From assembly GCA_001724025.1 (NCBI GenBank), contig MEDJ01000025.1, positions 90,289 to 154,288 on the forward strand: DNA of 64,000 bases, read 5' to 3'. A program made the position numbers and the translations under genes. Shown here piece by piece: positions 13,977 to 64,000 of the stretch. The notes under the pieces were generated by a model. That model did not search any database and had not been told where the DNA came from. It saw only the letters and a list, made by a program, of their open reading frames with translations. The DNA comes from Acidobacteria bacterium SCN 69-37 (lineage in GTDB: Bacteria; Acidobacteriota; Vicinamibacteria; Vicinamibacterales; SCN-69-37). Each line of letters starts with the position of its first letter. Positions within the stretch are counted from its first letter, which is position 1.

Positions 13977-14984
13977 TCACCGTCGTCGCCGCTGCCATTC
14001 GTTGACCGCGCGATTGTGCTCGGTGAGCGTCGAGGAAAAGACGTGCGTGCCGTCGTTGCGACTGACGAAGTAGAGGTACGGCACATTGGCGGGATCGAGC
14101 ACGGCCTCGAGTGCCGACCGGCCAGGCGCGGCAATGGGCCCCGGCGGCAGGCCGGGATTGCGATAGGTGTTGTACGGATGCTCCATCTGGAGATCGCTGC
14201 GCCGGATGTTGCCCGTCCAGCGACCGAGACGCATCATCGCGTAGATCACCGTCGGATCGGTCTGCAGCGGCATCCCGCGCCGCAGACGGTTGAGGAAGAC
14301 GGCCGCCACCATCGGCCGCTCGTCGGGCGCGGCCGTCTCGCGTTCGACGACGGATGCCAGGGTGACAATCTCGCGCAGGCTCAGGCTGCTGGTGTCGGCT
14401 CGGCCGCGCAGGTCGGCGTACACGCGGCGGAACTGGCTCACCATGGCCGCGACCAGTTCGTCGGCGGTCGTCCGGCGCGACACCGTGTAGGTGCTCGGGA
14501 ACAGGTAGCCCTCGAGATCGTCGGCCGCCGGATCCAGATCGCGAATCAGGTCGACGCGACCGGCCGCCGTGCGAAACGATTCGGCCGGCCCGAGCCCGGC
14601 GGCCTCGAACACGCCGGCCATCTCGGGGATCGTGAGCCCTTCGCGAAAGGTGATCGGCAACACGAAGACATCGCCACGCGCGAGCCGGGCCACGACCTCG
14701 GTCGGCGTCGCGGCATCGGCAAAGCGATACTCGCCGGCCTGTAGACGACGCTCCTGACCAGACAGGCGGGCGGCCAGGCGGAACGTCAACGCGTCCGGAA
14801 CGATGCCGGCCGCGGCCAGGCGATCGGCCATGCCCGACACACTGGTGCCAGCCGGCAGCTCGACGAACACCTCCCCGCCGGTGAATCCCCGGTAGGGCGT
14901 GCCGACACGCACGAAGATCCACCAGACCGCGCCAGCGGCCACCAGGGCGAGCAGCACCATCCCCGCGAGCAGTCTCCGGATCAT
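13977..14984 (-). CDS. mltG: Endolytic murein transglycosylase
   Basis: A 335-residue inner-membrane lytic transglycosylase (YceG/MltG) that cuts nascent glycan strands and helps set their length. One N-terminal membrane segment (about residues 5-25), then a LysM-like region, then the catalytic domain with EGYLFPSTYTV, the catalytic-glutamate region SVVERETAAPDE (about 211-222), LQTDPTVIYA and YNTYRNPGLPPGPI. The ATG at 14984 overlaps the ruvX stop (ATGA), which is more likely than the longer in-frame start inside ruvX. It is the second gene of a ruvX-mltG pair. Confidence 0.95.
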   Translation of the reverse strand: MIRRLLAGMVLLALVAAGAVWWIFVRVGTPYRGFTGGEVFVELPAGTSVSGMADRLAAAGIVPDALTFRLAARLSGQERRLQAGEYRFADAATPTEVVARLARGDVFVLPITFREGLTIPEMAGVFEAAGLGPAESFRTAAGRVDLIRDLDPAADDLEGYLFPSTYTVSRRTTADELVAAMVSQFRRVYADLRGRADTSSLSLREIVTLASVVERETAAPDERPMVAAVFLNRLRRGMPLQTDPTVIYAMMRLGRWTGNIRRSDLQMEHPYNTYRNPGLPPGPIAAPGRSALEAVLDPANVPYLYFVSRNDGTHVFSSTLTEHNRAVNEWQRRRR

Positions 14985-39849: not shown

Positions 39850-41091
39850 CTAGGACCGGTACGCCTGCCGGCCGATGCCCTGGGCCGGAATGCCCTGCGC
39901 GGCCAGCACCTCGTGCTGGAGCGCATACATGTTCGCCGCGGCCTGATCGATCGCCCGCACGAACGCGATCGATCCCTGCAGGATCGGCGTGAGCCGCGCC
40001 TTGTCCTGGATGCGCGCCTTCGGGTACTCGTGCTCGACCACCAGGTGCGTGTTGGCCACGTCGAGCGAGAGCAGTTCGCGCGCGGCGAGCTGATGATCGA
40101 GCCAGTCGACCGTGCGGTTCTGCAGGTAGGCCAGCGGGTCGTGCTTCGCCGTGCCCGGCAGTTCGTGTTCACACAGGACGACCTGCTTCTTCCAGGCATT
40201 GGCCTGATCGGCCGGGTTGGGCGACGGTTCGCCGTCCTTCCAGTCGCCACGCTCGATCGTCTGGCCGCCGTAGCCCCACGCCGACACGCCGACGGGGTCG
40301 ATGACCTGCCCCTTCACGTGGAACCCGCCGATGAGGAAGCCGTAGCCCTGATCCTTCAGATACTGGAAGATCGAGCGCGTGTCCTGCCCCATCAGGATCG
40401 CGTGCGACGGATCGTAGTGGATGCGGAAGTTGTCGCCCACACCGTGCTTCTCGCAGATGCGGTGGAGGGCAATCCACGGGCCCGGGGCGTACGCGATGTT
40501 GTTGTGAAACAGGTCCGTCGTGTTCCAGCCCGGCATCGGGCACTGCTCGACGCGGTAGGTGATGCCGCGCGCCTTGGCTTCCTTCAGGAGCGGGATGAAC
40601 CAGTTCTCGAAATCGACGAGGTTCTGATCCATCGATCGCTCGATGTTCCGGCCGACGAAGCCACACACCGCATCGACGCCGAGCAGCGCGGCGGCATCGA
40701 ACACGCGCAGCATGAAGTCGATCTTCTTCTTCCGGATCGCCGGGTCGTGATGGAGCAGGTTGTCGAAGTAGCCGAGGTCCGAGACGCCGATGCCCGTGGC
40801 GTCGAGGGCCGCGCGCACGCGCGTGGCGCGCACCTTGTCGAACGGCAGCCGCAGGTCGAGCGTGTTGGCCACCGGATCGAGCATCGCCTCGGCGGGCACG
40901 TCGCTCTCGCTCGGGTGCAGCGCGGACGAGATCTGCACGTAGCTGGCGCCGACCTCCTTCGCGAAGTCGAGCCACTCCTCGATGGCGCGGTCCGGATCGG
41001 GATCGCGGACCTCGCGCGGCGTGAGTTCCTGCAGGGCGGCCGTGAGCACGCCCACTTTCATGTACTTCGGGTCGAATGCCTTGGTTGCCAT
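39850..41091 (-). CDS. Sugar phosphate isomerase/epimerase family TIM-barrel protein
   Basis: A 413-residue protein of the AP-endonuclease-2 superfamily used as sugar isomerases or epimerases. The N-terminal strand [15 protein letters not shown] and later [16 protein letters not shown] and [14 protein letters not shown] segments carry the acidic and histidine residues expected for metal binding. The C-terminus [14 protein letters not shown] is typical. It starts one base into the stop of the upstream oxidoreductase (TGATG) and precedes xylB by 25 bp. The actual sugar is not known; operon context points to an aldose or its oxidised derivative. Confidence 0.85.
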
Positions 41092-61270: not shown

Positions 61271-62195
61271 TAGCGCGTTTTCGGGTTCTTCATAGCGACG
61301 CGTAGCCGCAGTGGCGGAGATAAGCCGCACATTCAGCCGAGGAATAGAGCCGCAACGCGTCGGCGACGCGCGCGCAGATGTCGTCGAAGGATCGGGGGCG
61401 GGGGGCGCGCAGAAACGCCTTGAGCTTCGCGAACGCGAGCTCGATCGGATTGAGGTCGGGGCTGTCGGGCGGGAGGAAGTGCACAGTGCCTCCCGCGCGA
61501 GCGATCGCCGCGGCACTGGCGGCATCCCGGTGGACGTTGAGGTTGTCGAGCACGACGCGATCGCCGGGGCGGAGCGTGGGCACGAGGACTTGCTCAACAT
61601 AGGCGCGAAAGCTGTCGGCGTCGATCGGCCCGACCAGCACGGCCGGGGCGATGAGGCCATCGGTGCGCAGCCCTGCCACGCCGGATCAGATCGGTCGCCA
61701 CGCCGGGTTCGGCCAGAAAGACGAACGCATGAGCCGGACGCGTGAGCCTCGCGCCCCGCCACGTCTCGCGCCGCGCGACCACGTCTGGCCGATCGCGTTC
61801 AGTGGCGTGTACGGTTTTTCTTAACCGACAGGTTCAGCCGGTCGAGTTCGGGCCAGAGTGTGCTGAGCGCCACCGCCACGCCGATCGCCGCACGAATCTC
61901 CCGGTCGGGCTGCGCCGCGACGAGCGCGCGCAGCCGGTCTTCCTGGCCCGCCAAGCGCCGGCCCCGAAACTTCGTCTGCTTCCGGGGCGCGTCCTCGCCC
62001 GCTCGAGGCCGCTGGTCGATGCGATCCACCCACGACCGGCTGCCCCGGTACGTCGCGGCGACGTCCTTCGACGCTCGGCCGCTCACCCGGTCCGCCAAGA
62101 CGCGACTCCGCAAGTCCATCGAGTCCGGTGCCATGGTCCCTCCTGACCGGAGAAGTACCACGACGCGGTACTACGTACAACCCGAAAACGCGCTA
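61271..62195. mobile_element. IS630-family insertion sequence remnant with intact inverted repeats and TA duplication
   Basis: A 921-bp element (61273-62193) bounded by the target dinucleotide TA on both sides. The terminal inverted repeats TAGCGCGTTTTCGGGTT (61271-61287, and its complement at 62179-62195) are identical over 17 bases including the TA. TA target choice is a hallmark of IS630/Tc1-mariner elements. The transposase inside is destroyed. The right-hand TA is part of the TAG stop codon of the DUF6766-type gene. Confidence 0.9.
61290..62134 (-). pseudogene. IS630-family transposase, inactivated
   Basis: N-terminal helix-turn-helix part (62134-61799: MDLRSRVLADRVSGRASKDV, RKQTKFRGRRLAGQEDRLRA) ends at a premature stop after LNLSVKKN. 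The middle part continues in another frame (AFVFLAEPGVATDLIRR); in active relatives it reads FLDE, so the first catalytic Asp is Ala here. About 25 codons and a frame are then lost before VAGLRTDGLIAPAVLVGPID. The C-terminal part retains VVLDNLNVHRD and SPDLNPIELAFAKLKAFLR with the other two acidic residues. At least three disabling changes. Confidence 0.88.
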
Positions 62196-62885
62196 ACGAC
62201 CGGTCTCGGCGCACGGCGCGTGTACGGGCTTGGACTCGGGCGACCGGCGCTGGCGCAGATACACGGCAAGCCAGACCATCGACGCGATCGCCAGGAACTC
62301 GCTCTGCCAGTTCTGGAGCGACTCGAACCAGAAGCGCGAGGAGGTCAGGGAGACGGCGAGGCGCGGCGGTGTCGTGCCATGTGCGAGAGCTTCCTCGACC
62401 GCCGCGGCATGGCCGCCGGCTGCGTGACCGGCGAAGGCACCGACGAACAACAGGATGAACGTCAGGGCCGAGCGACGACTCGTATACCCGCAGCATCCAA
62501 CCGCCGCGGCGCACGGGCCAGGGCACGCCGGGTGCGTCAGCGAAGTCGCGCGGATCCGCGTCGACGAGTTCGATCGCTGCGGCCGCCGGGACTCGGGCGA
62601 TCCCTGCTGCACGAGCACGGTCGTCAGCAGAACGAAGACAGCCATCTGCAGGAATTCGCTCTCCCAATTCTCGAACACGGCCTCCCACAGATGACCGGTG
62701 CGCAAGTAGCGCTGGAGTCCGGCGGGTTCGAGCCCGACCTCGGCCCGATCGGCGTTATAGGCCACGTGGCCCGCACCCACCTGGCCCGCAAGCGACAGGG
62801 CGAACATCGTCAGGAGCACCAGGGTCAGTCCACGCGCCCGGATCCAAGCCATGCGTCTCACCTTCCACGGGGCGTGGGCGGGCAC
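62193..62885 (-). CDS. DUF6766-type membrane protein with a compensated frameshift
   Basis: A 230-residue inner-membrane protein with two similar halves, each a membrane helix followed by an F-E-N/F-E-S-x-x-N-W-x-SEF motif (FENWESEFLQMAVFVLLTTV; FESLQNWQSEFLAIASMVWL). The link between them, about residues 99-137, does not fit: the +1-shifted frame instead encodes AIELVDADPRDFADAPGVPW and PVRRGG...RVYESSLG, typical of the family. So one base is lost near 62582 and one gained near 62468. The end AETGR-TAG coincides with the IS insertion point. An in-frame ATG 11 codons later (62852) is also possible as start. Confidence 0.7.
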   Translation of the reverse strand: MPAHAPWKVRRMAWIRARGLTLVLLTMFALSLAGQVGAGHVAYNADRAEVGLEPAGLQRYLRTGHLWEAVFENWESEFLQMAVFVLLTTVLVQQGSPESRRPQRSNSSTRIRATSLTHPACPGPCAAAVGCCGYTSRRSALTFILLFVGAFAGHAAGGHAAAVEEALAHGTTPPRLAVSLTSSRFWFESLQNWQSEFLAIASMVWLAVYLRQRRSPESKPVHAPCAETGR

Positions 62886-62898
62886 CGCCGTGACGCCG

Positions 62899-64000
62899 CT
62901 AGTCGACTGGCGGCAGCGGCGTCACGGCGGGTCCGGCCAGCACGTCCCCGTCCGGCGTGAAACGTGACCCATGACACGGGCAATCCCACGTGCGTGCTGC
63001 GGCATTCCACCGCACGACGCAGCCGAGGTGCGTGCACACGGCGGAACGCAGCACGATCCGTCCCGCATCGTCGCGGAACGCCGCCACCTTCGTGCCGCTC
63101 CGTTCGATGACGCGCCCGTCGCCGACCGCCAGGTCACGTACGGATTCAGCAGCGCCCGACAGACGATCGCGAACCAGGTAATACGGATAGTCGGCGTTCT
63201 CCTTCACGTAGCTCCATACGCCGGCAGCCGGCACCGCTCGATCGATCTCGAACAGACCGGCCCAGGTGTGGCCGCGGCCGGCGATGATATCGGCGATCAT
63301 CATTCCCGCGAGCGTGCCGAAGGTCAGGCCATTGCCGCCGTATCCCGTCGCTGTGTACTCGTGCTCGGCCGTGCGCCCGATATACGGCAGGCCGTCGGGC
63401 GTTTCGATGACCTGCCCCGACCAGCGGTGCGCGATCTGCACGTCGGGACACAACCCGATTAGTTGCTGCTCGAGCCGGCGATGACAGGCCTCCGGATCCG
63501 CCTGCTGGCCGGTCTTGTGATCCTCGCCCCCGAGAATGACGACATCGGCGTCGCGGCGTCGATCGATGCGCAGGTAGTGGTACGGATCGGCCGTGTCCCA
63601 CCACAGCGCGTCGGGCACCGTGCCTGGCGCCACGTGCCCTGCCACGGCATACGTCGTGTACGCCGCGAGACGTGTCTGCAGCAGCGCCGTGCCCGCCGAA
63701 CCGCCCAGTCCCGCGAGCGGCGTGTGCGTGGCGATGACGACATCTCCGCACGAGACGACGGCGCCGTTGGCCCCGACGACCCGGGGATCGTCGTGAAACT
63801 CGCGGACGTCCGAGTCTTCGTAGATGCGTCCGCCCAGCAGGGAAATCGCCTCGGCCAGCCCGGCCAGGTACCGCCGCGGGTGCAGTCGGGCCTGCCCGCC
63901 AAACCGCACGCCAGGCTGCTGCACGAAAGGGACGACCTCCACGGATTCCGCGTCGAAGCCGAAATCTCGGGCCAGCCCGCGTCGGCCTCGAACGCCGACG
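62899..64000 (-). CDS. FAD-dependent oxidoreductase with C-terminal Rieske domain (partial, N-terminus beyond the window)
   Basis: 367 codons are visible up to the right edge; the FAD-binding N-terminus is missing. The DAO-type substrate region ([70 protein letters not shown]) is followed by a Rieske [2Fe-2S] domain with CTHLGC...CPCHGSRF (C-x-H, C-x-x-H) near residue 330 of the visible part. The architecture is that of YhfW/glycine-oxidase-like proteins. Substrate unknown. It is the only visible gene of its transcript, 13 bp from the DUF6766 gene. Confidence 0.88.

Follow-up and report, generated by a model that had tools for sequence, protein, structure and literature searches.

A DUF6766 gene with its central linker in the neighbouring frame: probable consensus errors or a very recent compensated frameshift

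In this work we show that the central linker of a DUF6766 gene from Acidobacteria bacterium SCN 69-37 has its proper reading frame in the neighbouring frame, and that the rest of the gene follows the family frame and is free of stops. The gene appears to be an ordinary member of its family whose assembled sequence, rich in G+C at this place, holds two opposite one-base indels some 105-115 bases from each other. These indels shift the linker out of frame and then back. We consider it rather probable that both are errors of the assembled consensus, which would have arisen in a stretch near the contig end; the usual family linker is probably what the organism encodes. Most likely the case reflects an assembly error, or failing that an ordinary pair of mutations of very recent date, rather than a new kind of biology. 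The window denotes the whole analysed stretch of 64,000 nucleotides (contig MEDJ01000025.1, positions 90,289 to 154,288); unless noted otherwise, coordinates are window positions, and the features are collected in Table 1.

The ORF matches the Pfam profile of DUF6766 (PF20554) with an E-value of 1.9e-70 and 237 bits (cut-off 27), its residues 13-229 aligning to profile positions 3-220 of 221, which places it in the family over nearly the whole model. It starts with GTG, an ATG following 11 codons further on, and it is the only match in the 4.43-Mb genome and thus a single-copy gene. The distance to the end of the contig (155,252 bases) is 2.1-2.8 kb. In several relatives, residues 4-109 also aligned to the other half of the protein as a second match; as the two halves resemble each other, the family looks like the product of an internal duplication. 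Directly 3' of the gene lies a degraded transposase (61293-62170, minus strand), presumably of an IS630-type element. It consists of a piece with a DDE_3 domain (61293-61685) and, in a different frame, an N-terminal piece that matches no Pfam family (61802-62170), and the sequence between the two is apparently gone; one further copy, 59% identical, is present in the genome on contig C4. On the other side, a homologue (63%) of the upstream FAD/Rieske oxidoreductase also adjoins DUF6766 in the order relative L082 (1504-2154 and 2619-3653 of that locus), in the opposite order to the window, and weaker homologues were found near DUF6766 in L045, L030 and L048 among the 95 loci searched.

Table 1. 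Window coordinates of the DUF6766 gene, its parts and its upstream neighbour
Feature	Position	Strand	Basis
DUF6766 ORF, stop included	62193..62885	(-)	230 aa; two two-helix halves and linker (PF20554, AlphaFold models)
First half, family frame	62583..62885	(-)	62% mean identity to ten order relatives, residues 12-101
Interval holding first frame change, towards frame 2	62571..62582	(-)	Frame-change profile alignment, between 62573 and 62571; conserved SPESRRP ends at 62580
Shifted stretch, family linker in neighbouring frame	62466..62571	(-)	Identity as read versus neighbouring frame; substitutions by codon position
Interval holding second, opposite frame change	62463..62469	(-)	Profile alignment, between 62469 and 62465
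Second half, back in family frame	62196..62465	(-)	64% mean identity to ten order relatives, residues 141-224
FAD-dependent oxidoreductase with C-terminal Rieske domain, upstream neighbour, same direction, open to window end	62899..63999	(-)	PF01266 and PF00355 on 62899-63942

In the alignment to its relatives, the ORF tracks the DUF6766 family as far as SPESRRP and rejoins it at LTFILLF. Between these two motifs it reads PQRSNSSTRIRATSLTHPACPGPCAAAVGCCGYTSRRS as it stands. The relatives, e.g. L082, L083 and L084, show the pattern DPRDFxDxPxxPWPVRRGGWxLRxYExSL at this place, and the neighbouring frame of the window gives ELVDADPRDFADAPGVPWPVRRGGWMLRVYESSL, which is the family linker. The combination of PxPVxxGG and YxxSL is thus present in the neighbouring frame only and not in the gene's own frame. 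For the placement of the frame changes, a profile of 85 relatives, with the window left out, was used, and each shift was charged 15 bits. The score rises from 355.7 bits in one frame to 420.5 bits with two frame changes, the 30-bit penalty already being taken off, which is more than chance. The first change can be placed no closer than about 62582-62571. The original prediction had put the indels at 62582 and 62468, within some ten bases of the sites given by the profile, and it located the ORF, both conserved halves and the out-of-frame middle where the alignment to relatives has them. It had given about 37 codons for the off-frame span; we measure about 38, with no stop as read. With two opposite short indels, a restored frame and no stop in between, the gene has the pattern of a compensatory frameshift pair (pCFM).

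The shifted stretch was then compared with the ten order relatives in both frames. As read, ORF residues 103-140 share a mean identity of 8% with them, as against 69% among the relatives themselves; for the two flanks, whose identities to the same relatives are listed in Table 1, the relatives reach 64% and 70% among themselves. Read in the neighbouring frame, the stretch matches each of the ten at 23-29 of 34 residues, bearing out the PWPVRRGG-type linker that had been predicted there. The mean is 25.8/34, and the relatives share 24.6/34 among themselves. At the 22 columns kept by at least eight of the ten relatives the proper-frame linker shows no departure at all, i.e. no decay (L002 and L088 are the same protein and were counted once in the identity and 22-column comparisons). 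Across 26 relatives 38 columns are invariant, 35 of them when the window ORF is added; the three residues lost are the Y, S and L of YxxSL, all within the shifted stretch.

Codon usage points in the same direction. When substitutions between the window and the relatives are assigned to codon positions of the neighbouring frame, positions 1, 2 and 3 receive 75, 83 and 181 (10 of 13 relatives tried; L028 was left out with fewer than 15 identical residues, and L086 and L088 are absent as they lie on the other strand). The G+C content by codon position of the proper-frame linker (0.79/0.53/0.82) is like that of the flanks (0.72/0.47/0.83 and 0.67/0.54/0.84). The codon signal favouring the neighbouring frame, 8.5-10 nats, is positive but modest: compensated pairs simulated in the same genome gave a median of 23.5 nats, and 97% of them reached 8.5.

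Since the constraint in the neighbouring frame is intact, this frame must have been kept by selection until now or very recently, and since its linker shows no decay, the shifts are either not real or very recent. The absence of decay at the 22 columns fits a consensus error and is equally to be expected of a very recent mutation. As a rough estimate from the third-position distance to L082, one tenth of the terminal branch would be enough for a neutral linker to collect about two departures at these columns. If the shift is real, it is therefore unlikely to date from before about the last 15% of this branch.

We favour consensus errors because the frame changes are seen in one genome only, lie near a contig end and are accompanied by no decay, although the closeness to the contig end is only suggestive as a sign of error. 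Furthermore, errors concentrate in poorly covered stretches, real pairs are very rare as well, and of the two explanations error alone can do without a recent date; we weighed these points in favour of error. In addition, the window was presumably picked after many genomes had been scanned. The main argument against consensus errors is the quality of the assembly, which is otherwise clean, with few disrupted genes in 445 kb. The same cleanliness speaks for the alternative of real indels, in which a recent frameshift was followed by a second one restoring the frame, so that both halves stayed intact and are now joined by some 38 residues of new linker. We regard this as possible, if somewhat doubtful.

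The cleanliness of the assembly was assessed by a codon-frame scan of 444,964 bases, which flags same-strand switches that are not plain gene junctions. It yielded 118 same-strand frame switches, seven of them flagged, at five places. With 300 simulated single indels, 271 were shown and 217 flagged. At one flagged place the disruption is clear: a UPF0261 gene is divided between two frames at about 13023 of L101 (12057-13333, minus strand, G000:C6:20001-40000). Profile positions 2-79 lie in one ORF, positions 89-174 and the C-terminal domain in another, and the split is a single, uncompensated frame change. A second place (L096, about 13980-14129) probably holds a remnant, whose match to HTH_37 is weak at 21 bits (cut-off 27). 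Two others were discarded as disruptions, L112 7263-7442 being the Pro/Ala-rich part of a dnaX-like protein and L101 9368 looking by eye like a gene start; at the flagged switch at window position 39850 a stop is one base away. The degraded transposase escaped the flags and was noticed by eye. The search for an assembly rich in indels thus came out negative, with one clear and one likely disrupted gene in the scanned sequence.

Among 101,869 windows scanned separately for compensated pairs, four clusters exceeded 8 nats. One is the DUF6766 linker; the other three were dismissed by eye as Gly/Ala-rich stretches of L108. Starting from three disruptions, uncertain ones included, independent errors would produce about 0.016 compensated pairs per genome. 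An opposite-sign pair within about 110 bases is accordingly odd for independent errors, which counts for a real pair, and consensus errors would have to cluster at the DUF6766 gene.

To see how the linker varies in the family, we used DUF6766 relatives from 80 loci of named genomes, more from genomes of the same order and three loci from viral contigs. The motif pattern was present in the gene frame of 76 of 97 related loci. The remaining 21 comprise three fragments and 18 loci with variant or shortened linkers, and all of these 18 full-length relatives keep YxxSL when read by eye. L046, L063, L065 and L068 lack PxPVxxGG; that these four manage without part of the linker, and that the shifted stretch has no stop, is in favour of a real pair. 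Against it stands the loss of the invariant Y, S and L, which every variant-linker relative has retained, and the undecayed old frame, by which the pair would need to be very recent. As a side observation, the DUF6766 gene of a Verrucomicrobiaceae MAG (L006, 3001-3645) carries an in-frame TGA in its GSxES motif.

Within the order, the gene occurs in 11 of 161 other genomes (a tally of 12/162 counts the window's own genome, as does another of 10/100), and in the order search no listed genome from its own family or genus had it. As the genome examined from the same genus lacks the gene, the terminal branch is long. The gene is thus dispensable in the order, which again counts in favour of a real pair. 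Ten of ten order relatives encode the neighbouring-frame linker in their own frame. In the phylum, matches to the proper-frame linker were obtained in 9 of 396 genomes, the own one included, in frames without stops. The present-frame linker gave matches in four of the 396, again including its own. One of the three others comes from reading an intact DUF6766 gene out of frame and is interrupted by a stop, and the remaining two, with no more DUF6766 similarity around them, look like chance. A shift shared with a second species was seen neither in the 97 related loci (three of them fragments) nor in the 396 genomes.

These counts bear on two further explanations. The present linker might be an old, functional variant of the family, since the ORF is open throughout and linker length and sequence vary among members. 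We rejected this explanation as very improbable: among the 396 phylum genomes only the window's own encodes the present linker in the frame of a DUF6766 gene, and the neighbouring frame is undecayed. Programmed frameshifting, by which the ribosome would shift twice and obtain the family protein from the present DNA, has in its favour that reading through both shifts yields a complete family protein. It was likewise rejected, and we give it practically no credence, as two opposite shifts would be needed in one message and the ten order relatives encode the linker in a single frame, with no shared slippery site to select for. The original prediction of two cancelling one-base indels is supported by the same counts, and orthologues with the present-frame linker, which would have spoken against it, were found in no relative examined.

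Structure predictions were made with AlphaFold for the present ORF and for the intact relative L002. In the L002 model (mean pLDDT 85.6), long helices form two pairs and the linker is ordered, with blocks at residues 101-130 reaching 83-89. In the model of the present ORF (mean pLDDT 76.4) the helices are kept and pLDDT falls below 50 at residues 98-135, which argues against a real pair, although this gap is biased by the alignment, which backs the family linker only. A structure search with the L002 model gave 17 matches, none with E <= 0.001; as no known fold resembles it, no function was inferred. It is rather unlikely that we see here a genuine bacterial compensated frameshift very soon after it arose, in which a membrane protein has just swapped a conserved connector for about 38 unrelated residues with both halves still under constraint.

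Should consensus error be the cause, as we favour, the case would illustrate that an open, full-length ORF matching its family can still hold a wrong central segment, and that ordinary annotation misses it, given the Pfam E-value of the present ORF. If the pair is real, it would be a prokaryotic compensated frameshift of such recent date that the ancestral frame can still be read directly, and it would offer a natural, direct test of whether the DUF6766 linker matters.

In the literature searched, no paper on DUF6766 by that name was found, and nothing on compensated or frame-restoring shifts in bacterial genomes appeared to bear on this case. Compared with the family, the ORF keeps 35 of the 38 residues invariant in 26 relatives and is set apart by its central linker, whose PWPVRRGG and YxxSL motifs are out of frame. 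With consensus indel errors it shares one-base indels near a contig end and an undecayed true frame, whereas such disruptions are few in the sampled rest of the assembly. A survey of pairs of compensatory frameshifting mutations has been made in vertebrates and insects (PMC8935012). In that survey 624 candidate genes were reduced to six by filtering, which cautions against a real pair here, even as the existence of such pairs in animals favours one. NCR3LG1 and SPATA24 are given there as a 1-bp deletion with a 1-bp insertion and RAB36 with a spacing of 99 nucleotides, and regions spanned by compensatory pairs are reported there to be less conserved. The DUF6766 case is like those pairs in its two opposite short indels with the frame restored, and differs in being prokaryotic and known from the assembled sequence of one genome alone; if confirmed, it would belong with them.
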